Shown here: in pieces, positions 8,805 to 60,084 of the stretch
Numbering within the stretch: the first letter of the stretch is position 1
Layout: each line of letters starts with the position of its first letter
Source: Hyphomonadaceae bacterium
GTDB taxonomy: Bacteria; Pseudomonadota; Alphaproteobacteria; Caulobacterales; Aquidulcibacteraceae
Assembly: GCA_023384105.1 (NCBI GenBank)
Contig: JAHDXR010000010.1
Span: 1-64,000, forward strand
DNA: 64,000 nt
Direction of reading: 5' to 3'
Position numbers and translations under genes: made by a program
Notes under the pieces: generated by a model
Database searches by the model: none
What the model was told of the DNA's origin: nothing
What the model saw: only the letters and a program-made list of their open reading frames with translations

Positions 8805-10733
8805 ATGCGGTTTGCGGCGATGTTCGCCTTCGCGCTGGCGCTGACCGGCGCGGCGCAGGCGCAAGTTACGGACGCGACCCGCGCGGCCAATGCGGAGCTG
8901 GCGCGCACGCTGCCATGGAGCGATCGCGAGGACGAGGACTTCGCCGCGCGTGGCTTCATCGCCGCCTGGGATCAGCCGCAAATCCGCGCCGCCGACGGTC
9001 ACGTGGTTTGGGACTTCACCGCCTACGACTTCCTCCAGGGCGACGCGCCGGAGACGGTGAACCCCAGCCTGTGGCGCCATGCCGGGCTGCTGGCGCGCGC
9101 GGGCCTCTTCCAGGTGACGGACCGCGTCTATCAGGTGCGCGGCTTCGACGTGTCGAACATGACGATCATCGTCGGCGACACCGGCCTCATCCTGGTCGAT
9201 CCGCTGACCAGCGCGGAGGTCGCAAGCGCGGCGCTGACGCTGGCTCGGCGCACGCTGGGCGACCGGCCGGTGCGGGCGGTGATCTACACCCACAGCCACG
9301 TCGACCATTTCGGCGGCGTGCGCGGCGTCGTCAGCGCCGAGGACATGACGGCGGGACGGGTCGAGATCATCGCGCCGGAAGGCTTCATGGAGCATGCGGT
9401 GACGGAGAACGTCATCGCCGGCGCCGCCATGGGCCGGCGCGCGCTCTACCAGTTCGGCGCGGGGCTCGCGCCGGGCCCGGAAGGGCAGATGACGTCGGGC
9501 ATCGGCCTCGCCATCTCGGCCGGCGCGTTCACGCTCATCCCGCCGACGCGCACGATCGCGCGCACCGGCGAAACATTGACGATCGACGGCGTGCACATCG
9601 AGTTTCAGCTCACGCCGGAAACCGAAGCGCCCGCGGAGATGAACTTCTTCCTGCCCGATCTCGGCGTGCTGTGCCTGGCGGAGAACGCCAACGCCGCGAT
9701 GCACAACATCCTGACGCCGCGCGGCGCGCTGGTGCGCGACGCCAAGGCGTGGGCGGATTATCTCACCGAGTCGCTGCGCCTCTATGGCGCGCAGTCGCAG
9801 GTGATGGTGACGAGCCACGCTTGGCCGCGTTTCGGCGCCGAGCGCGTGCGCGATTTCATCGCCAGCCATCGCGACGCGTACAAGTATCTGCACGACCAGA
9901 CCGTGCGGCTGATGAACGCCGGCTACACCGACCGCGAGATCGCCGACCTCGTGCGCCTGCCCGAGCCGCTGGCGAGCCGCTGGTTCAACCGCGGCTATTA
10001 CGGCACGATGATGCACAACTCCCGCGCCATCTATCAGCGCTATATGGGCTGGTACGACGCCAATCCCGCCAACCTCAACCCGCTGCCGCCGGTGGAGGAA
10101 GGCGTGCGCTTCGTCCGCGCGATGGGCGGCGCCGAGCGGGTGCTGGCGGAAGGTCAGCGCGCATTCGACGAGGGTGATTATCGTTGGGCGGCGCGGGTGC
10201 TGAACCATCTCGTATTCGCCGATCCGAGCGACACCGCCGCGCGCCAATTGCTCGCGCGCACGCACCGGCAGATGGCGTGGCAGGCCGAGAGCGGCATTTG
10301 GCGCAACATGTATCTCGTCGCCGCGCGCGAACTGGAGCAGGGGCCGCCGGCGCGCGGTTCGCAGGTCGTGAGCGTCGATCTCGTTGCGGCCACGCCCACC
10401 GGCTACATTCTCGACCTGCTGGCGGTGCGGCTCAATCCGGAGCGGCTGGGCGCGCGCAGCTTTGCGTTCAACCTGGTTTTCCCGGAACGGAACGAGCGCT
10501 TCGCGGTGACGATCCGGAACGGCGTGCTGGTGCACGAGCGCGACGTGACGCTTCCCGATGCGCCAACGATTACCGCCGCGCGCGCGACCTTCCTGCAGGC
10601 GATGGCGGCCGGCGCGATGCGCCGCGCCGTGTTATCCGGAAGCGTGCGCATCTCCGGCGATAGGCGCTCGCTTGAAGGCATGAACGAGGCGTTCGATACA
10701 CCGGACCCGAATTTTCCCATCGTCACGCCCTGA
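8805..10733 (+). CDS. Secreted alkyl sulfatase, SdsA1-like metallo-beta-lactamase fold
   Basis: 642 residues with an N-terminal signal peptide (MRFAAMFAFALALTGAAQA). The metallo-beta-lactamase domain carries the di-zinc motif HSHVDHFGG, followed by the alkyl-sulfatase dimerization region (YTDREIADLVRLPEPLA, YYGTMMHNSRAIYQRYMGWY) and an SCP2-like C-terminal domain. Such enzymes hydrolyse linear alkyl sulfates such as SDS to alcohol and sulfate, usually in the periplasm. GGGGGAG at 8795-8801 supports the ATG at 8805. It sits between the Lhr and PdeM genes, co-directional, but is functionally unrelated to them. Confidence 0.9.
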   Translation: MRFAAMFAFALALTGAAQAQVTDATRAANAELARTLPWSDREDEDFAARGFIAAWDQPQIRAADGHVVWDFTAYDFLQGDAPETVNPSLWRHAGLLARAGLFQVTDRVYQVRGFDVSNMTIIVGDTGLILVDPLTSAEVASAALTLARRTLGDRPVRAVIYTHSHVDHFGGVRGVVSAEDMTAGRVEIIAPEGFMEHAVTENVIAGAAMGRRALYQFGAGLAPGPEGQMTSGIGLAISAGAFTLIPPTRTIARTGETLTIDGVHIEFQLTPETEAPAEMNFFLPDLGVLCLAENANAAMHNILTPRGALVRDAKAWADYLTESLRLYGAQSQVMVTSHAWPRFGAERVRDFIASHRDAYKYLHDQTVRLMNAGYTDREIADLVRLPEPLASRWFNRGYYGTMMHNSRAIYQRYMGWYDANPANLNPLPPVEEGVRFVRAMGGAERVLAEGQRAFDEGDYRWAARVLNHLVFADPSDTAARQLLARTHRQMAWQAESGIWRNMYLVAARELEQGPPARGSQVVSVDLVAATPTGYILDLLAVRLNPERLGARSFAFNLVFPERNERFAVTIRNGVLVHERDVTLPDAPTITAARATFLQAMAAGAMRRAVLSGSVRISGDRRSLEGMNEAFDTPDPNFPIVTP

Positions 10734-18291: not shown

Positions 18292-18741
18292 ATGACCAAA
18301 GCCGAGCGCACCTACACAATTTCCCAACTGGCGCGTGAGTTCGACGTCACGCCGCGCGCGCTCCGTTTCTACGAAGACAAAGGCCTGCTGACGCCGCGTC
18401 GCGACGGCATGAACCGGGTCTACTCGCATCGCGACCGCGCGCGGCTGCAGCTGATCCTGCGCGGCAAGCGCGTCGGCCTCTCGCTGATCGAGATCAAGGA
18501 GATACTCGACCTCTACAAGGTCGATCAGCGCGCGCAGGCGCAGACGGCGCTGAAGAAGTACAAAGCCCGCGTCGTCGCTCTCGAAGCGCAGCGCGAAGAC
18601 ATCGACGCGGCGATCGAAACGCTGACCGACAGCATCGCCAAGCTGGAAAAGTTCCTGTCGAAACCGGCGCCGGCTGCGGTGATGGGCGCGGCGCGCGCCT
18701 TTGAGGCGGAAGCCAAGAAGCGGCTCGAAGAAGTACACTAG
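18292..18741 (+). CDS. MerR-family regulator, LiuR-like, of acyl-CoA degradation
   Basis: 149 residues. The N-terminal MerR winged helix reads YTISQLAREFDVTPRALRFYEDKGLL, then NRVYSHRDRARLQLILRGKRVGLSLIEIKEIL. A dimerization helix (about 85-125) has no effector cysteines, so it is not a metal sensor. MerR proteins of this type (LiuR group) repress branched-chain amino acid or fatty acid degradation genes. Its position directly ahead of a beta-oxidation gene run and the palindrome over its own promoter support that role. ATG 18292 follows AGGGATG; a longer start at 18229 lies inside the operator and is rejected. Confidence 0.88.
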   Translation: MTKAERTYTISQLAREFDVTPRALRFYEDKGLLTPRRDGMNRVYSHRDRARLQLILRGKRVGLSLIEIKEILDLYKVDQRAQAQTALKKYKARVVALEAQREDIDAAIETLTDSIAKLEKFLSKPAPAAVMGAARAFEAEAKKRLEEVH

Positions 18742-51950: not shown

Positions 51951-52835
51951 TCAGCGCTGCGGTCTGTCTTCGCCCTGCACGGTGACGCGTTCGACGATGC
52001 GCTCGTGCGGCCAGTAATCGAGCACGCCGTAATGCTGCGTGGCGCGATTGTCCCAGAAGGCGATGTCGTTCTCGCGCCAGCGGAAGCGCACATGGTATTC
52101 GGGCGCTTTCACGCGATCGACGAGATAGGCCAGGAGGTCGGCGGCTTCCTTCTCTTCGAGGCCGAGGATGCGGCTGGTGAAGATGTGGTTCACGAACAGG
52201 TGCCGTTCGCCGGTCTCGACGTGGCGGCGCACGACCGGATGCGTCTGCGCCGGATGCTCGCGGCGCAGCTGCTCGGCTTTCTCCTTGCTCACCCGGTAGC
52301 CGAAGCTCCGCAGGATGTCGTGTTCGGCGTCGAGGTGCTCGATCCTGGCTTTCACGTCGGGCGGCAGGTCGGCGTAGATCGCGGCGGTGTCGGCGAAGAT
52401 GGTGTCGCCGCCGAGCGGGGGCAGTTTGCGCATGCGCAGGATGCCGGCGAGCGAAGGGATTTCGCGGAAGGTGACGTCGGTGTGCCACTTGTTGGCGGGG
52501 CGCGCGATCGGGATCAGCTCTTCGCTGAGCTTCATGCCGTCGGCGGCCTCGATGTAGAGGATTTCCGGAAAGCCCGGCACGTGCGCGGTGACCGGATGGC
52601 CTTCCAGTTCGCCGAAATAGCGGCCGAAGCGGACATGATCCTCGTAGCTGATGTCCTGATCGCGGAAAAACAGCACCTTGTGCTTCAGCAGCGCGTCGCG
52701 CAGTTCCGCGACCTGTTCGGACGAGAGCTCGCGTCGCAGGTCGGCGCCCGCCACCTCGGCGCCCAGCAGCGGCCCGATCGGGGTGAAGTGCAGAGCGGCT
52801 GATCGCAGCGCCGTCGCCGTGGCGGACTTTCCCAT
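51951..52835 (-). CDS. TauD/TfdA-family Fe(II)/2-oxoglutarate dioxygenase
   Basis: 294 residues. Iron ligands H118 and D120 (NKWHTDVTF) and H268 (NRATQHYGVLDYW); R279 (ERIVERVTV region) binds 2-oxoglutarate. TauD enzymes hydroxylate taurine or alkyl sulfates/sulfonates to release sulfite or sulfate, TfdA aryloxyacetates; the exact substrate is not clear. It is divergent from the TonB receptor and shares its control region, which suggests a role with the imported compound. It converges on tolC 4 nt away. Confidence 0.9.
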   Translation of the reverse strand: MGKSATATALRSAALHFTPIGPLLGAEVAGADLRRELSSEQVAELRDALLKHKVLFFRDQDISYEDHVRFGRYFGELEGHPVTAHVPGFPEILYIEAADGMKLSEELIPIARPANKWHTDVTFREIPSLAGILRMRKLPPLGGDTIFADTAAIYADLPPDVKARIEHLDAEHDILRSFGYRVSKEKAEQLRREHPAQTHPVVRRHVETGERHLFVNHIFTSRILGLEEKEAADLLAYLVDRVKAPEYHVRFRWRENDIAFWDNRATQHYGVLDYWPHERIVERVTVQGEDRPQR

Positions 52836-52876
52836 CGGAAGCTCCTGTGATGCGGGTGCGGCGGGGATAATCTACT

Positions 52877-53000
52877 TAATCTCGATCGGATCAATAGAGA
52901 TTAGCTAAAGCGTGTCTTCAGGAGCGGCTGGAACCGCTGGAATTTGCGTCGTGAGCTGCGTGAGCGAACGCAGCGCGGGCCGACGCATGATCCAGATCAA
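52877..53000. promoter_or_regulatory. Shared control region with AT-rich palindrome and FNR/NnrR-like box
   Basis: TAATCTC-N13-GAGATTA (52877-52883 and 52897-52903) is a perfect interrupted palindrome in an AT-rich patch only 42 nt from the tauD-type start. About 85 nt further, ATGAT-CCAG-ATCAA (52987-53000) matches the FNR/CRP-family consensus TTGAT-N4-ATCAA at nine of ten positions. FNR-like NnrR controls nnrS in other bacteria, and the operon starting at 53134 ends with nnrS. No convincing -10 was found. Confidence 0.5.
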
Positions 53001-53133
53001 CTCTCGTCCGGGCGCGGCATTGGCGCGCCCCTCCATGCGCTGACAAAGCGCCGCATGGCGCACTTTTGACTCGCGAATGCGAAACACTCGCAGGTAAAAA
53101 GCCGTATCGAAAAGTCCAGTTTGGGGGCGAGAG

Positions 53134-55395
53134 ATGGAAACTAGAGGTCCTTCGGGTCAGCGGCGCGGCGGCGTCCGGCTGTTGTCCGCGGCGCTGCTGG
53201 CGGGGGCGTCTTTGCCCGCCTTGAGCGCGCCGGCCCTCGCCCAATCGGTGCTCCCCGGCGCGCACGAAGCTCCCCAGACCGAAGAGATCGTCGTCACCGG
53301 CGAGCGCCGCTCCGCCGTCGAGATCGCGCAGGCGAGAGCGCGCGCCACGCCGGGCGGCGTGAGCGTCGTCGTCGCCGACGATGTCGCGCAGAACGCCAAT
53401 GTCACGCTGTCCGACGCGCTGTCGTCGGCGCCGGGCGTCGTGGTGCAGAATTTCTTCGGCGCCAACGATCAGCCGCGCGTGCAGATCCGCGGTTCGGGTT
53501 TGCAGCAGAATCCGGTCGAACGCGGCGTGCTTGTGCTGCTCGACGGCCTGCCGCTCAACCGCGCCGACGGCTCCTATGTCGTCGGCCTCGTCGATCCGCG
53601 CCAGGCCGCGCATATCGAAGTGTTTCGCGGCTACACCGCCAACCGCCTGGGCTCGACGGTGCTGGGCGGCGCGATGAACTTCGTGCTGCCCTCGGGCGTC
53701 CAAGCCGACGGCTTGCGTCTGCGCGCCGAAGCGGGAGAGTTCGAGCACGTCTATGGCGGCGCCGATCTCGGCTTCAGCGGCGGCGGTTGGGACGCGCAGG
53801 CCTCGCTCAGCCACACCGAGCGCGACGGCTTTCGCAGCTACAACAGTTCCGAGCGCACCAGCGGCTACGCCGCGGCCAGCTTCCGCTGGAGCGACCGCGT
53901 GACGACGCGCGTGCTCGCGGGCCATGTCGACAACCGCTTCGACGTGTCGGGGCCGCTCAATTACGCCGCGCTTCAGGCCGATCCTTCGCAGGTTTCGCTG
54001 GGCCCGGTCGTGGTCGGCGGCGTGGCGCAGAATCCGGGGCCGAATGTGGTGCGCGACCAGCCCCGGCGCGACACCGCGCTCACCTGGGCCGGCGTCCGCA
54101 CCACCGCGTCCCTGGGCCGGCATGCGCTCGACGGCGCCGTCAGCTACGTGACCTCCGACGACAGCTTCAGGTTTCCGGTATCGTCCGGCGAGCGCGTCAC
54201 CGAGGGCGGCGTGCTCAATGTCATGGCGCGCTACGCTTACGAAGGCGAGGCGGGCCCGTTGCCCTTGTTCGAAGCGACCGCGCTCATTTCCAGCGGGGAC
54301 GACGACCGCGACTATTATCTCAACGCCGCGGGCGTGCGCGGGGCGCTGTTCGGAACCGGCGAACTCTCGGCGACCACCTACAGCTTCAATGTGAACGCCA
54401 ATATCCCGCTGGGGCGCAACTTCACGCTCTCGCCCTCGCTGTCCTACGCGCACGCCGAGCGCAGTTTCGACGACCGCTACACGCTGGCGACCCGCCCGAC
54501 GCTGGCGTTCAATCCGATGAACCCGACCGTGCGCCTACCGGACGGCGCGGTTCCGACAGTCGACGCCAGCTATGATCGTGAATACGACGAAGTGAGCCCG
54601 GCGCTGGCGCTGAGCTGGACGCCGACGCCCGACGATCATCTCTTCGTTGCGCTGAGCCACACGTTCGAGCCGCCCTCGCACGACGACCTGCTGGCCACCA
54701 TCAACGGCACGCCGAACTCGTCCGCGGGGCGGCCCGCGCCAGGCAATCCGGCGCTGCCGGCGGCCGTGTTCGCGACGCCCGCGCTCGAAGCCCAGACCGG
54801 CGACACGCTCGAGATCGGCTGGCGCGGCAGACGGGGGCCGGTCGCGTTCGACGCGGTCGCGTATTACGCCTGGCTCGACAACGAACTGCTCAATCTGCGC
54901 GACGCCACCGGGGTCTCGATCGGCGCGATCAATGCGGGCGAGACGCGCCACTTCGGGCTCGAACTCGCCGCCGGCGCGGCGCTGACGCCCCAGCTCAACG
55001 CCCGCTTGGCCTACGTTTATCAGGACTTCCGCTTCGTGGACGATCCGGTGCGCGGCGACAACCGGCTGGCCGGCGCGCCGCCGCATGTCGTCAATCTCGA
55101 TCTCGACTACAGTCCGGTCCCATCCCTGGTGCTGGGCCTCAGCCTCCATTGGCTGCCGGACGAGACCCCGGTCGACAACCTCAACACGCTCTATAACGAC
55201 GCCTATACGGTCGTGGATGCGCGTGCGATCTACCGCACCAGCGAGCGCTGGCGTCTCTTCGTCGAAGCGCGCAACATCGGCGACGAAACCTACGCGGCGT
55301 CGACGCTTGTCGTCGATCAAGCCCAACCCGGCCAGGCCGTGTACATTCCAGGCGACGGGCGCGCAGTCTATGCAGGTGTTGCGGTTGAGTTCTGA
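53134..55395 (+). CDS. TonB-dependent outer-membrane receptor
   Basis: 753 residues. A signal peptide (LLSAALLAGASLPALSAPALAQS), a TonB box (TEEIVVTGER), a plug domain (TLSDALSSAPGVVVQNFFGANDQPRVQIRG, GVLVLLDGLPLNRADGSY) and a 22-strand barrel ending in the terminal aromatic F (GRAVYAGVAVEF). It imports a large or scarce compound with TonB energy. The periplasmic ABC system and NnrS follow in the same direction, within overlapping frames, which implies one uptake unit. Confidence 0.92.
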   Translation: METRGPSGQRRGGVRLLSAALLAGASLPALSAPALAQSVLPGAHEAPQTEEIVVTGERRSAVEIAQARARATPGGVSVVVADDVAQNANVTLSDALSSAPGVVVQNFFGANDQPRVQIRGSGLQQNPVERGVLVLLDGLPLNRADGSYVVGLVDPRQAAHIEVFRGYTANRLGSTVLGGAMNFVLPSGVQADGLRLRAEAGEFEHVYGGADLGFSGGGWDAQASLSHTERDGFRSYNSSERTSGYAAASFRWSDRVTTRVLAGHVDNRFDVSGPLNYAALQADPSQVSLGPVVVGGVAQNPGPNVVRDQPRRDTALTWAGVRTTASLGRHALDGAVSYVTSDDSFRFPVSSGERVTEGGVLNVMARYAYEGEAGPLPLFEATALISSGDDDRDYYLNAAGVRGALFGTGELSATTYSFNVNANIPLGRNFTLSPSLSYAHAERSFDDRYTLATRPTLAFNPMNPTVRLPDGAVPTVDASYDREYDEVSPALALSWTPTPDDHLFVALSHTFEPPSHDDLLATINGTPNSSAGRPAPGNPALPAAVFATPALEAQTGDTLEIGWRGRRGPVAFDAVAYYAWLDNELLNLRDATGVSIGAINAGETRHFGLELAAGAALTPQLNARLAYVYQDFRFVDDPVRGDNRLAGAPPHVVNLDLDYSPVPSLVLGLSLHWLPDETPVDNLNTLYNDAYTVVDARAIYRTSERWRLFVEARNIGDETYAASTLVVDQAQPGQAVYIPGDGRAVYAGVAVEF

Positions 55396-55399
55396 GGCG

Positions 55400-56386
55400 A
55401 TGCAATTTGTGAGACGGGGGATATCGCGCCGGCATGCGCTGGCGGCGGGCGCAGCGCTTGTCGTCGGCGCCTGCGCGCGCGAGCGCCCGGCGCCGGGAGA
55501 GTTCGCGATCTGGGGCCCGCCGGCGGGGCCGAGCATCATCCTCGCGCATGCCGAGCGGCAGGGCATGCTGCGCGAGATTGCCGAAGATGCGACGGTGCGG
55601 GCGTGGCGCAGTCCCGACGAATTGCGCGCGGGGCTCACCTCGCAGACGATTCAATTGTCGATCATGCCGCTCAACACCGCCGCCAATCTGTACAATCGGG
55701 GCCAGGACGTGCGCCTCGTCAACATCATGACGCGGGGGCTTCTCTACGTCGTGTCCGAGGACGACGGCATCGTCGATGTCGCGTCGCTGGCCGGCAAGCG
55801 GCTCGCCGTGCCGTACCGGAAGGACGCCCCGGAAATCGTGTTGCAGCGGCTCCTATCCTATCACGGCCTGGCGGAAGGCGATCTGACCGTCCGCACGACC
55901 GGCACGCCGATCGAGGCGACGCAGCTCTTGCTCACCGGCCAGGTCGACGCCGCGTTCGTGCCGGAGCCGGCGGCGTCGGCGGCGATCGCCGCGGGCGGGC
56001 TGATTGGAAAACGCCTGCGCCGCGTGATCGACGTGCAGCAGGCGTGGGCGTCGGTCGCCGGCGAAGGCGCAAGCCTGCCGCAGGCCGGCCTCGCCGCGAC
56101 CGGCGCGTTCGTGGACGCGCATCGCGCGCAACTGGCCCGCCTGAACGAGGTGCTGATCGCCGCCGTGCGCGCGACGCTGGAGCAGTCGGGCGAAGCGGCC
56201 GCCGCCGCCGCATCGCTGTTCGGCTTGCCCAAGCCCGTGCTTGAAGCCTCGATTCCGTATTCCAACCTGGTCGCCGTTCCGGCCGCCGAGGCGAAGAGCG
56301 AAGTGGAGCGCTATTTCTCGGCCATTCACGAATTGGACGTCGACATTCTCGGCGGGCGGCTCCCCGATGCAGGCTTCTACGTCTAG
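55400..56386 (+). CDS. Tat-exported ABC substrate-binding lipoprotein, NitT/TauT type
   Basis: 328 residues. Twin-Arg signal (RRGISRRHALAAGAALVVGAC) with a lipobox Cys, then a periplasmic binding domain: LTSQTIQLSIMPLNTAANLYNRGQDVRLVNIMTRG (NMT1/THI5-like), LAGKRLAVPYRKDAPEIVLQRLLSYHGL, TEATQLLLTGQVDAAFVPEPAAS. This is the family that binds nitrate, taurine, sulfonates or thiamine precursors. The ATG at 55400 lies 4 nt after the receptor stop; an in-frame ATG at 55370 would overlap it. Confidence 0.87.
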   Translation: MQFVRRGISRRHALAAGAALVVGACARERPAPGEFAIWGPPAGPSIILAHAERQGMLREIAEDATVRAWRSPDELRAGLTSQTIQLSIMPLNTAANLYNRGQDVRLVNIMTRGLLYVVSEDDGIVDVASLAGKRLAVPYRKDAPEIVLQRLLSYHGLAEGDLTVRTTGTPIEATQLLLTGQVDAAFVPEPAASAAIAAGGLIGKRLRRVIDVQQAWASVAGEGASLPQAGLAATGAFVDAHRAQLARLNEVLIAAVRATLEQSGEAAAAAASLFGLPKPVLEASIPYSNLVAVPAAEAKSEVERYFSAIHELDVDILGGRLPDAGFYV

Positions 56387-57203
56387 CGCCGGCGTCCTCG
56401 ACGCCGCGCTCGATCGGCTCGGCCGCATCGGCCGGTTTCTCTGGTCGGCCTGGATCGGACTTGCAGCGCTTTCGCTGATCGCCGCGCTCTGGCAATTGGG
56501 GCACGAGATTTTCGGCGACTTCGTGTTGCCTGCGCCATTGCCCGTCATCGCTCACATACAGGCGATCGTTGCGGCGCCGGAGAGTCATCCCGTCATCCTG
56601 GCGACGGCGGAGCGCGCGCTCGTGGGGCTTGCGCTGTCGCTGCTTGTCGGCGGCGGCCTGGGCCTCGTGATCGGCTATTCGCCGGCGGCGATCCGGATCA
56701 TGCGCCCGGTGGTGACGATCCTCATCGGCGTGCCGCCGATCGCCTGGATCGTGGTGGTGATGATCTGGTTCGGCTCGACCGACACGACCATTATCGCAAC
56801 GGTCGTCGCCGCGGCGGCGCCGCTGCTGCTTATCGGCGCCGCCGAAGGCGTCATCACGCGCAATCGCGGGCTCGACGACATGGCGCGCGCCTTCGGCGCC
56901 GGGCCGCTGAGACGCGCGACGCTGGGATTGAGGCAAGCCGCGACGACGCTGTTTCCCGCGCTCATGATGGCGTCCGGCACGGCGTTCAAGGTCGCCGTGA
57001 TGTCCGAACTGCTGACCAACGCCGGCGGCGTCGGCGGCGCCTTGGCGGACGCGCGCGCGACGCTGGACGTGGGCGAGGCGCTGGCCTGGGTCGCGCTCGC
57101 CGTCGCGCTGCTTCTGCTGGTCGAATACGGCCTCATGCATCCTGTGCGCAGCGAGTTCGAACGCTGGCGTTCGGCGGCGCAGCCTTGGGGCGTCAAACGA
57201 TGA
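56367..57203 (+). CDS. ABC transporter permease, NitT/TauT (SsuC) type
   Basis: 278 residues, six membrane helices. The EAA-like motif is AFGAGPLRRATLGLRQAATTLFPALMMASG, followed by FKVAVMSELLTNAGGVGGALADARATLDVGEALAW typical of the family. The start overlaps the binding-protein gene by 20 nt and the stop overlaps the ATPase ATG (ATGA at 57200-57203). It moves the captured ligand across the inner membrane. Confidence 0.9.
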   Translation: MQASTSSAGVLDAALDRLGRIGRFLWSAWIGLAALSLIAALWQLGHEIFGDFVLPAPLPVIAHIQAIVAAPESHPVILATAERALVGLALSLLVGGGLGLVIGYSPAAIRIMRPVVTILIGVPPIAWIVVVMIWFGSTDTTIIATVVAAAAPLLLIGAAEGVITRNRGLDDMARAFGAGPLRRATLGLRQAATTLFPALMMASGTAFKVAVMSELLTNAGGVGGALADARATLDVGEALAWVALAVALLLLVEYGLMHPVRSEFERWRSAAQPWGVKR

Positions 57204-57949
57204 GCGTGCTCGCGCTGCACGAGATCGGCCACGCCTATTTCGGCCGCACGGTGCTCGACCGCGTTTCGCTCGACATCGGCGCGGGCGAGTGCGTGGCGCT
57301 GGTGGGGCCGTCCGGTTCGGGAAAGAGCACGCTGCTCCATATCGCCGCGGGCCTGCTCACGCCGGTGCGCGGCCACGTTGCGCGCGGCTATCGCCGCCAT
57401 GCCGTGGTGTTCCAGGAGCCGCGCCTTCTCGACTGGAAGGACGCCCGCGGCAACATCGCCTACGTCCTGCGCCGCAGCCGCCTCTCCAGCCGCGCGCTGG
57501 GCGCGCGGATCGCGGCGGTGGCCGAACTGGTCGATCTCACGCCGGACGATCTGAAGAAGTTTCCGGTCGAACTCTCGGGCGGCATGCGCCAGCGCGTGGC
57601 GATCGCGCGCGCGCTGGCGATCGAGCCGGACTTCGTCTATTTCGATGAGCCGTTCAGCGCGCTCGATGTCGGCCTGCGCCAGCGCATGCAGGATCTGGCG
57701 CTCGGCGCGCTGTTGCGGAGGGGCGCCGGCGTGCTTTTCGTGACCCACGACCTGATGGAGGCGGCGCGCATCGCCCATCGCGTGCTCGTGCTCGCCGCGG
57801 ACGGCTGCGGCGTCGCCGGCGAGCGCGCCATAGAGGGCGCGCCGCTGGCGCGCGATGCGCGCGCCAGCTTCGACTGCGCGCAACGTTTCCTCACCGCCGA
57901 CCCGCTTTTTGCTCATCTCAACGACGTCGATGAGCGGCGCGTGCTATGA
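57200..57949 (+). CDS. ABC transporter ATP-binding protein, NitT/TauT (SsuB) type
   Basis: 249 residues. Walker A GPSGSGKST, Q-loop VVFQEPRLLDWKDARGNI, signature ELSGGMRQRVAIARAL, Walker B FVYFDEPFSALD and H-loop VTHDLMEA. The QEPRLLDW segment is typical of nitrate/taurine/sulfonate ATPases. It is coupled at both ends: the permease stop and the NnrS start overlap it by four bases. Confidence 0.92.
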   Translation: MSVLALHEIGHAYFGRTVLDRVSLDIGAGECVALVGPSGSGKSTLLHIAAGLLTPVRGHVARGYRRHAVVFQEPRLLDWKDARGNIAYVLRRSRLSSRALGARIAAVAELVDLTPDDLKKFPVELSGGMRQRVAIARALAIEPDFVYFDEPFSALDVGLRQRMQDLALGALLRRGAGVLFVTHDLMEAARIAHRVLVLAADGCGVAGERAIEGAPLARDARASFDCAQRFLTADPLFAHLNDVDERRVL

Positions 57950-59136
57950 TCCGCGCCGGCAAAGCGCTGACGGCGGCGCTGACTGAAGAGGCGCTGCGCC
58001 TGTTCTTTCCGTTGGGCGCGGTTTACGCGGCGCTGTGGCCGTTCGCGTGGACGTGGGTTTTCCAGCTCGACCTGCCGCTGATCCAGGCGACGCCGCCGTC
58101 GGTCTGGCACGGCCACGAGATGATCTACGGCGCCTATGGCGCGGCGCTGCTCGGCTTCATCCTGACCGCCGTCCCGGAATGGACGGACACGCCGCGGCCC
58201 GCGCCGCGGCTGTTGCTGGTGCTTGCGTGCCTGTGGGGGATAGGCCGCATGGTCGGCCTGTTCGGCGTCGACTGGGCGAACGCTCTTGCGGGCCTCGCCG
58301 ATATGGCCTGGCTCGTTGCGCTTATCGGCTTCGTCGGGCGCGTCGCCTGGCGCGCGCGCACCGCCAGCCTCAACGGCTTTCTGCTCTGGCTCGCGGCTCT
58401 GTTGGGCTGCGAAGCCGTGTTGCGCTGGGCGATCGGCGCGCAGGACGTCGCGCTTGCGCAAACCGCGCTGCGGATCGCGGTGTTGTCCTTTTCCGCGCTG
58501 CTGGCGCTGGCGCTGGCGCGGATCACGCCGCCGATCACCAACCGCATCCTCGATCCGGAGCGGAAAACGGCGCCGTTCAGGCCGCATCCTGGCAAACGCC
58601 ATCTGGCGCCGGCGCTGATCGCCGTCTGCATCGGCGCCGAACTCGCCGGCGCATCGAGCGCCGTGCTCGGCTATCTTTCCATAGCGGCGGGCGCCGCTTT
58701 CATGGATCGCGTCGCCGAATCCTTCATCGGGCGACAGTTCTTCCGGCTGGAAATCCTGGCGCTGTCGGGCGCAGCCGCGCTGGCGGGACTCGGCCTGCTG
58801 CTCTGGGGCGCCGGGCGGCTCGGCGCGCCCGGGCTCGACGTCGTCGGCCTGCACGTCTTGGGCATGGGCGGACTCGGCGTCGGCGTGCTCGGCGTTTTCT
58901 CCATCGCCGGCAAACTGCACACGGGCCAGGAGCTGGGATTGTCGAAACGGATCGCGCTGGCGTTCGCGCTGCTGCTGTTGGCGGTGGTCCTGCGCGCGGC
59001 GCCGACCTTCGGCGTCCTTCCGCCCGGACCCATGCACGGCCTCGCCTCGCTCGCCTGGGCGGCGGCGTTCCTGATCTGGCTACGCGCCTACTGGCCGGCC
59101 TTCTCGGCTCAGCCGGCGGGGGAGGCTCGGCCTTAA
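57946..59136 (+). CDS. nnrS: NnrS family membrane protein
   Basis: 396 residues, about twelve hydrophobic helices. NnrS motifs: WHGHEMIYGAYGAALLGFILTAVPEWT with H55/H57 as heme/copper ligands, NGFLLWLAALLGCE, VLALGMGGLG-like segments (LHVLGMGGLGVGVLGVFS) and the region around FIGRQFFRL. NnrS is a heme- and copper-containing protein that protects cells from nitric oxide stress. The ATG overlaps the ATPase stop (ATGA), so it is the last gene of the TonB / ABC operon. Confidence 0.88.
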   Translation: MIRAGKALTAALTEEALRLFFPLGAVYAALWPFAWTWVFQLDLPLIQATPPSVWHGHEMIYGAYGAALLGFILTAVPEWTDTPRPAPRLLLVLACLWGIGRMVGLFGVDWANALAGLADMAWLVALIGFVGRVAWRARTASLNGFLLWLAALLGCEAVLRWAIGAQDVALAQTALRIAVLSFSALLALALARITPPITNRILDPERKTAPFRPHPGKRHLAPALIAVCIGAELAGASSAVLGYLSIAAGAAFMDRVAESFIGRQFFRLEILALSGAAALAGLGLLLWGAGRLGAPGLDVVGLHVLGMGGLGVGVLGVFSIAGKLHTGQELGLSKRIALAFALLLLAVVLRAAPTFGVLPPGPMHGLASLAWAAAFLIWLRAYWPAFSAQPAGEARP

Positions 59137-59287
59137 GGTCTGATCCGGCGCCCCGGACTTGCCCTTGTTTGCCGGGCCTCGCTCGACGGCGATGACGGGA
59201 GCTGGCGATCCAACAGGGAAGGGCGCACATGAGCTGCTGCTTGCACTCTTGCAGCCGCGGCAAAGACCGTTATCTCTCAACCCGCTC

Positions 59288-59362
59288 GCGGGCATAGTTC
59301 AGAGGTAGAACGTCAGCTTCCCAAGCTGAATGTCGGGGGTTCGATTCCCCCTGCCCGCTCCA
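59288..59362 (+). tRNA. tRNA-Gly (anticodon CCC)
   Basis: Acceptor GCGGGCA (59288-59294) pairs with TGCCCGC (59352-59358), then discriminator T and an encoded CCA (59360-59362). D arm GTTC-AGAGGTA-GAAC; anticodon arm TCAGC-TTCCCAA-GCTGA with CCC at positions 34-36; T arm GGGGG-TTCGATT-CCCCC. A complete cloverleaf. Confidence 0.95.
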
Positions 59363-59458
59363 GAGCTTCAACCACCTAACCGCTGTCGGCGGAGGCGCCC
59401 GCCAAGGGCTGGGAAAGTCTCGCTGCCGCGAATCCTGAGCGCTTCCGGCGCGACCGAT

Positions 59459-59511
59459 CAATTTTCGTAGTATGCAAAGTACTTGCGCTGCGACAATTTT
59501 CGTAATACAAA
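59459..59511 (+). promoter_or_regulatory. Control region of the BrnTA module with direct repeats
   Basis: CAATTTTCGTAGTA (59459-59472) and CAATTTTCGTAATA (59494-59507) are direct repeats 35 bp apart in an AT-rich stretch just before the toxin gene. A weak promoter overlaps them (TTGCGC 59483-59488, 17 nt, TACAAA 59506-59511). The BrnA antitoxin is a DNA-binding autorepressor in characterised modules, so these repeats are plausible operators. Confidence 0.45.
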
Positions 59512-59516
59512 AATCC

Positions 59517-59789
59517 GTGCGTTACGCATGGGACGGAGCCAAGGCCGAGGCCAATCTCGCAAAGCACGGCGTTTCCATGGAGGCGGTGCGCGGGTTCGAT
59601 TGGAAGAGCGCCGTCGAGGTTGAAGACGATCGCTTCGACTATGGCGAGCGCCGCATGATCGCGATCGGCTTCATCGGTGATCGGCTGCATGTCTTGATTT
59701 ATGTGCGCCGGCATGCGTGGCGTCGGGTCATCTCTCTCAGAAAAGCCAACGACAGGGAGCGTGCGAGATATGAACAGGCAACGAAATAA
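59517..59789 (+). CDS. brnT: BrnT-family toxin (RNase)
   Basis: 90 residues from GTG 59517, the usual BrnT size. VRYAWDGAKAEANLAKHGVSMEAVRGFDW is the BrnT N-terminal signature, and RRMIAIGFIGDRLHVLIYVRRHAWRRVISLRKANDRERARY carries the basic residues of the RelE-like RNase fold. An ATG at 59472 lies in the promoter region and would add 15 atypical residues. The toxin is encoded first and overlaps the antitoxin gene by 20 nt, the characteristic order of this module. Confidence 0.88.
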   Translation: MRYAWDGAKAEANLAKHGVSMEAVRGFDWKSAVEVEDDRFDYGERRMIAIGFIGDRLHVLIYVRRHAWRRVISLRKANDRERARYEQATK

Positions 59790-60084
59790 GGCCGGGGCGC
59801 GGCTGAGAGCGCCGGCCAAGGCCAAGAAGGCGCGGCCGAAAGCGCCGGAGGGCGCGCTGTTTTCCGTGGATTCGCCGCCGGTGCCGGATCGGCTTCTGAA
59901 GCGGCTTAAGCCAACGGCGGAGGCGGCGAAGGCCAAGCGCGGCCGGCCGCGCTCGGAGGCCCCCAAGGAAGTGTTGAACGTGCGGGTCGACGCCGAAACA
60001 CTCAAAGCCTTCAGGGCGACTGGGGCAGGCTGGCAGCGACGCGTCAATGAAGCGTTGAAGCGCGCGGCCACGCGCCTGAAATAG
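59770..60084 (+). CDS. brnA: BrnA-family antitoxin
   Basis: 104 residues. A basic, Ala/Lys/Pro-rich N-terminal half is followed by the ribbon-helix-helix part: KEVLNVRVDAETLKAFRATGAGWQRRVNEALKRAA, the BrnA signature. The Lys/Arg-rich linker (RGRPRSE) is common in these proteins. It neutralises BrnT and represses the operon. ATG 59770 with GGGAG upstream. Confidence 0.85.
   Translation: MNRQRNKAGARLRAPAKAKKARPKAPEGALFSVDSPPVPDRLLKRLKPTAEAAKAKRGRPRSEAPKEVLNVRVDAETLKAFRATGAGWQRRVNEALKRAATRLK

Follow-up and report, generated by a model that had tools for sequence, protein, structure and literature searches.

NnrS is a heme-copper membrane protein of nitric oxide (NO) regulons and, in excerpts of PMC6769254, is listed as a cuproprotein; excerpts of PMC10256816 cite that it relieves iron-NO stress in Vibrio cholerae. 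The unit described in this article joins an NnrS to an import route. It consists of five plus-strand genes at positions 53134-59136, coding in this order for a TonB-dependent receptor, a periplasmic binding protein, an ATP-binding cassette (ABC) permease, an ABC ATPase, and the NnrS. The unit lies in a stretch of 64,000 nucleotides (nt) from a Hyphomonadaceae bacterium—herein the window—on contig C18 (G000:C18) of a host genome of 3.67 Mb in 28 contigs. It recurs in two phyla, and its NnrS belongs to a branch of its own.

With TonB-dependent siderophore and heme uptake, the unit shares a plug-barrel receptor, an ABC importer, and, in part of the family, Fur-type sites. However, the ABC part in the window is of the NMT1/SsuA type and not of the FecCD type, and the receptor reaches 134.1 of the 223.5 bits required by the TonB-siderophor model TIGR01783, which is its best receptor score. 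PqqU/PqqT, the uptake system for pyrroloquinoline quinone (PQQ), provides the nearest solved receptor, the top fold match for a predicted model of the binding protein, and two carboxylate-binding arginines, whereas seven other PQQ contacts are lost and the window receptor reaches just 97.8 of the 1200 bits set by the curated PqqU model. The Ssu/Tau sulfonate importers resemble the unit in the binding-protein fold and the single-permease layout, but the unit of the window adds a TonB receptor and an NnrS and misses the curated cut-offs. Compared with the NnrS family (PF05940), the window protein exceeds the Pfam cut-off, and NO-type boxes precede its relatives; it differs in lying on another branch than the 36 sampled unlinked proteins, in being tied to the importer, and in lacking one otherwise common histidine.

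Architecture of the five-gene unit

The receptor (53134..55395, 753 aa) opens the unit and passes the Pfam cut-offs of PF07715 and PF00593 (plug 60 bits, barrel 132.4 bits). The binding protein of NMT1/SsuA fold (55400..56386, 328 aa) scores 31.6 bits for NMT1_2 and 30.4 bits for NMT1, both above the cut-off, and carries a VGAC motif that we take to be lipobox-like. It is followed by the permease (56367..57203, 278 aa; BPD_transp_1, 55.9 bits), the start of which was set at an ATG, a longer frame with a TTG start being also present, and by the ATPase (57200..57949, 249 aa; ABC_tran, 91.3 bits). The NnrS (57946..59136, 396 aa; 242.4 bits at a cut-off of 28) closes the unit. Receptor and binding-protein genes are spaced by 4 nt, those of binding protein and permease overlap by 20 nt, and ATGA overlaps of 4 nt connect permease with ATPase and ATPase with NnrS; hence, a single transcript is likely. 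That the five genes form one unit is practically certain. A first-pass annotation of the window had described them as overlapping or nearly so, from the outer membrane to NnrS, and as one import route with NnrS at its end; Pfam confirms every family, and families and gene order support the route. A foreign base composition was considered and rejected, the GC content being the same as in the surroundings.

Distribution among bacteria

Among 200 genomes of the order, the binding protein occurs in one, which is the host itself; for this reason, relatives were sought farther afield. They were drawn from Azospirillum, a metagenome-assembled genome of Hyphomicrobiales, 62 plasmid records, a class sample, and a phylum sample. 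Binding-protein matches were found in 4/385 genomes of the class sample (the host, two distant paralogues, and G362) and in 10/398 genomes of the phylum sample, host included. By profile scan of 34 loci (numbered L), spread over the listed matches, with all five proteins, binding protein, permease, ATPase, and an NnrS occur together in 27. Fewer than 27 of these cases are independent, since several loci are closely related (L006/L044, L009/L043, L011/L042/L060, L012/L040, and L007/L041). The first-pass annotation had proposed to look for a conserved gene order elsewhere and had named missing NnrS linkage as its refutation; the order is conserved, and 27 linked loci exclude the latter.

The unit is spread over Alphaproteobacteria, other Pseudomonadota, and Campylobacterota, the last with three of the 27 loci (Sulfurimonas, Arcobacter, and Nitratiruptor). 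Receptor relatives (49-57% identity, E ≤ 1e-80) are present in 22 plasmid records, and in 22/22 a binding-protein or NnrS relative lies at most about 5 kilobases (kb) away. The outer-membrane partner differs elsewhere: other TonB receptors occur in L037, L063, and L066 and a barrel match in L061, and two Campylobacterota loci have a barrel of another family. The fetched stretch of seven loci is devoid of NnrS (L034, L035, L062, L065, L068, L032, and L033). The latter two, from genomes G228 and G358, were set aside as distant paralogues: the other unit profiles are absent from their fetched stretches, and their neighbors resemble, by reading of the sequences, Mrp-type antiporter genes.

A literature collection with few subscription journals, covered in excerpts, yielded no description of the unit for NnrS with importer parts; the one text that names NnrS, a TonB-dependent receptor, and an ABC transporter together deals, in the part at hand, with a Paracoccus NnrS as regulator and not with the unit. 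The component families are known; neither the unit nor its NnrS branch seems to have been described.

Several relatives have particular surroundings. The unit closest to that of the window, L061 of genome G842 (binding protein 51%, ATPase 63%, NnrS 59%), adjoins relatives of UbiU, UbiV, UbiD, and UbiX and the gene for the large subunit of an arsenite oxidase (1297 bits). On a Diaphorobacter plasmid (L034), the binding-protein relative is flanked by two TonB receptors, a cupin, and a CobN-type chelatase gene, and the profile scan of this stretch gave neither ABC genes nor NnrS. The unit of an Arcobacter plasmid (L037) includes a small membrane-type protein at 8912-9319 that is UPF0093-like (28.6 bits, cut-off 34.2), and a weak relative of it occurs in L062.

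Importer-linked NnrS as a separate branch

NnrS as such is widespread, being present in 114/200 sampled genomes of the phylum. In a tree of 58 NnrS rows, from which nine near-identical rows and rows shorter than 250 residues had been left out, a single branch with a support of 100/100 separates 22 importer-linked from 36 unlinked proteins, and the split recurs in 100% of 200 bootstrap trees. The unlinked rows comprise six second NnrS genes of unit loci, the other nnrS of the host, and 29 loci of the phylum search, which are its best-scoring matches and not a random sample; within about 1.5 kb of these 29, no profile match to the other four unit proteins was found. The window NnrS falls in the linked branch, which accompanies the importer in two phyla.

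The two groups also differ in their histidines. Columns 55 and 303 are histidine in all rows (22/22 linked, 36/36 unlinked), and column 325 in 22/22 linked and 35/36 unlinked rows; the window NnrS keeps all three. Column 57 is histidine in 12/22 linked versus 35/36 unlinked rows, and column 274 in 0/22 versus 33/36, the window NnrS having none at residue 274. Because columns 274 and 57 differ between the groups, the alignment suggests an altered metal site in the linked NnrS.

Association with nitric oxide and low oxygen

In 9/27 full-unit loci, the fetched stretch contains a core gene of denitrification or one of its electron carriers, which bears out the proximity to denitrification genes that the first-pass annotation had proposed to look for. 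L011 contains nor and nirK, L042 and L060 nor, L012 nor and nap, L040 nap, L013 nosZ, and L031 narGHI; pseudoazurin and NnrU are located near the unit in L009 and L043. A NorB query (E 1e-15) matched 93/398 phylum genomes: 7/8 of those with the full unit versus 86/390 others (Fisher p 2e-4, uncorrected for kinship and with two phylum draws of 398 genomes taken as identical).

The control regions of the relatives point in the same direction. A TTG-N8-CAA box lies at most 250 nt from the first gene in 9/15 alphaproteobacterial regions (L012 and L040 among them being related), compared with 1.1 by shuffling (maximum 4 in 300 shuffles). Control of the FNR/NnrR type, as earlier proposed for the window, is thereby supported in relatives. 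The boxes of L013 and L031 fit the TTGCG-N4-CGCAA core of the NnrR consensus, as given in the excerpted part of PMC1274295. Regulator genes are found as well: Rrf2-type genes in or beside L007, L009, L010, L041, and L043, a Crp/Fnr gene within L004, and others beside L034, L035, and L037. In L009, L010, and L041, the Rrf2 regulator scores about as well for NsrR as for RirA, in each case below the cut-off, and was assigned to neither; NsrR-like and Irr patterns were loosely scanned and set aside. Control by NO or anaerobiosis across the family of the unit is highly probable.

The host itself encodes a NirK (505 bits, cut-off 296) and a qNor. Next to its nirK lie genes for a Crp/Fnr protein and a copper-binding cupredoxin, and two TTG-N8-CAA sites are located upstream of nirK; directly before the qNor gene, no such box was found. 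On contig C5, an anaerobic/NO island (L030 12980-18715) combines ribonucleotide reductase, an FtrB-type Crp/Fnr regulator, hemN, and the unlinked nnrS with several FNR-type boxes. A search for nosZ matched no control genome and is, thus, uninformative on nosZ in the host.

Candidate regulatory sites and the link to iron

The 298-nt gap between the unit and a divergent TauD-type gene contains two candidate sites. The FNR-like box ATGATCCAGATCAA (52987-53000, plus strand) begins 147 nt before the receptor ATG and has one mismatch to TTGAT-N4-ATCAA; a site as good occurred in 31/4000 dinucleotide shuffles of the gap. One-mismatch sites of this type are not rare in the window, as four are observed versus 0.34 expected; the other three are at 18484, 29772, and 61265. 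A scan of the window with the NnrR pattern gave no excess, and a consensus scan of 52800-59400 gave no sigma-70-like promoter.

The Fur-type palindrome CGCGAATGCGAAACACTCGCA (53072-53092, plus strand) begins 62 nt before the receptor ATG. It has 5/21 mismatches and was equaled in 1/4000 shuffles. Its position is the same as in three Azospirillum loci, where a TTG-N8-CAA box accompanies a Fur-type palindrome that precedes the receptor ATG by 59 to 62 nt. Neither this site of the window nor the separate NnrS branch had been noted in the first-pass annotation. Fur-type sites are also present in L031 (0/200 shuffles as good) and L037 (3/200) and are marginal in L008 (8/200) and L034 (11/200). For the site in the window, it is the position that carries weight and not its genome-wide uniqueness.

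Iron or heme genes were found in the fetched stretch of 7/27 loci. L008 contains heme uptake genes, hutWX, and FeoA; L037 a ChaN; L038 a ferritin, an imelysin, FTR1, and a transcriptional repressor; and L039, L009, and L043 FecCD-like iron ABC genes. The P-type ATPase of L004 is a weak case, its HMA match being below the cut-off.

Clues to the ligand

The nearest solved relative of the receptor is PqqU/YncD (profile E 1e-32). Arginines R304 and R365 of PqqU, which hold the PQQ carboxylates according to excerpts of PMC12124388, are arginine in 7/7 receptors. The contacts Q84, Y99, Q121, Q308, Q310, Y481, and R536 are not kept, so that two of nine readable contacts remain; K274 is without an aligned residue, and N447 is off the chain numbering. 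The predicted receptor model has a predicted local distance difference test (pLDDT) score of 26 and was not used.

With its profile, the binding protein matches 3hn0 (E 2.8e-18), 3qsl, PqqT, and SsuA in the PDB. Its predicted model gives PqqT, at the top, and SsuA as the best Foldseek matches, a result to be treated cautiously because the model has a pLDDT of only 61 and was built from three sequences. The Parabacteroides protein 3hn0 has a C-terminal motif, GG-x-LPD-x-GF, in common with the binding-protein family, which may therefore reach into Bacteroidota. PQQ itself is not supported as the ligand; an anionic organic chelate fits what can be read from both the receptor and the binding protein. 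The neisserial receptor TdfF was considered as a lead and dropped, since the excerpted review text gives neither its ligand nor its gene neighborhood.

Proposed function

We tentatively propose, at somewhat less than an even chance, that the unit takes up an organic, probably iron-bearing chelate in response to NO or low oxygen and that its dedicated NnrS shields or releases the metal. Herein, the TonB receptor would carry the scarce chelate across the outer membrane, and the binding protein and the ABC pair would pass it on into the cell. From its place in the inner membrane, NnrS would then act on the newly arrived metal, either by protecting the iron from capture by NO in iron-nitrosyl complexes or by aiding the release of the metal. 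Expression under NO or low oxygen would be mediated by a regulator of the FNR/NnrR type, perhaps of the Rrf2 type in some relatives, and a Fur-type repressor would probably add iron control in the host and in Azospirillum. With NirK and qNor, the host would itself make and remove NO. An iron-bearing chelate is favored because of the Fur-type sites, the iron and heme neighbors, and the role of NnrS against iron-NO stress as cited in the excerpts of PMC10256816. We infer the regulation in this strain, the ligand type, and the NnrS step with differing confidence: for control of the unit by NO or anaerobiosis in this genome, the balance tips slightly in favor, while an iron- or heme-type ligand comes close to an even chance. 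Unlikely in its full form is the more specific idea that a further type of NnrS, its metal site altered, works within NO- and iron-controlled TonB/ABC import of iron or heme chelates and reduces or shields the metal against NO.

Several observations weigh against the proposal. The FNR-family box of the first-pass annotation is indeed present at 52987, but it misses the first T and, thus, fails the strict TTG-N8-CAA core; the window is one of the 6/15 alphaproteobacterial regions without this core. A masked Fur-type pattern allowing at most three mismatches has no second match in the host genome, the mask having been fixed after the site had been seen and about one match per such genome being unsurprising by rough count; hence, there is no sign that the host Fur uses the site, although the pattern may not be that of the host Fur. 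Among the 27 regions scanned, none beyond the window, Azospirillum, L031, and L037 has a Fur-type site equaled in 3/200 shuffles or fewer. The binding protein conserves no Cys, His, or Met, and members of its fold group take small organic molecules, sulfonates and PQQ among them. Finally, G842 has the full unit beside an arsenite-oxidase gene but no NorB match.

If the more specific idea of a further NnrS type is true, the cassette moves among Alphaproteobacteria, other Pseudomonadota, and Campylobacterota, often by plasmid, and the NnrS family gains a concrete substrate. With an NnrS subfamily bound to one importer, the ligand of the importer would reveal what that NnrS handles. An answer would also show in what way bacteria that produce NO supply metal or cofactor to enzymes amid their own NO, which bears on the release of nitrous oxide.

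Alternative explanations

The importer and NnrS might merely be co-expressed in an NO regulon and share no function. NnrS is frequent in such regulons (PMC1274295, excerpted text), the fetched stretch of five loci (L034, L035, L062, L065, and L068) contains the binding protein but no NnrS, and a second, unlinked NnrS gene often stands in tandem beside the unit. A loose regulon should, however, mix NnrS subfamilies, whereas the linked NnrS is a single branch that lacks a histidine column kept in 33/36 unlinked rows and accompanies the importer in two phyla; we regard mere co-expression as improbable. A similarly low probability is given to the import of a PQQ-like redox cofactor or another metal-free polycarboxylate, with NnrS as redox partner or protector. 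The lost contacts and the low PqqU score oppose it, despite the relation of the receptor to PqqU/YncD, the two retained arginines, and the first place of PqqT in the Foldseek list of the predicted model. PqqT and SsuA are about equal for the binding protein, 3hn0 is far better by sequence, and no PQQ gene was noticed near the unit, though no search was aimed at one.

Copper is the other metal to be weighed: a copper chelate could be imported to supply NirK, NosZ, cupredoxins, and NnrS in denitrification. This would agree with the pseudoazurin beside L009 and L043, the nirK beside L011, the nosZ beside L013, the host NirK with its neighboring cupredoxin gene, and the listing of NnrS as a cuproprotein in the excerpted PMC6769254. 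It is nonetheless improbable as well, given a binding protein without conserved Cys, His, or Met, units that also lie near narGHI (L031) and near iron or heme genes, and Fur-type sites that indicate iron, copper-regulator sites not having been searched for. Very unlikely is an operon for the uptake of taurine or alkanesulfonate, with the substrate cleaved by the divergent TauD. The fold and the ABC genes do resemble Ssu/Tau systems, and the taurine dioxygenase model gives the divergent gene 271.9 at a cut-off of 313. Curated cut-offs are nevertheless missed by SsuA_fam (54.9 of the 163.5 bits required), TauC (31.9/342), and the taurine ATPase (139.5/357), and TauD is unlinked in other loci and present in the genus without the unit.

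Neighboring genes and minor features

The TauD-type dioxygenase gene (51951-52835; Pfam 233.4 bits) is divergent to the unit. The suggestion that its product may process the ligand did not hold: no TauD match was found in L004-L013, L031, and L060-L069, and no TauD-named product is annotated in L034-L044. The closest TauD relatives within the genus (76% and 71%) adjoin other genes without the unit, and TauD was accordingly rejected as a unit member. In the gap, closer to the TauD start, the inverted repeat TAATCTC-N13-GAGATTA at 52877-52903 may be a candidate TauD operator. As for control by a riboswitch, Rfam at gathering thresholds returned only a transfer RNA gene (59288-59359), and the candidate was rejected. 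This gene lies directly downstream of NnrS, as does BrnT/BrnA, a toxin-antitoxin pair (59472-59789 and 59770-60084, both above the Pfam cut-off).

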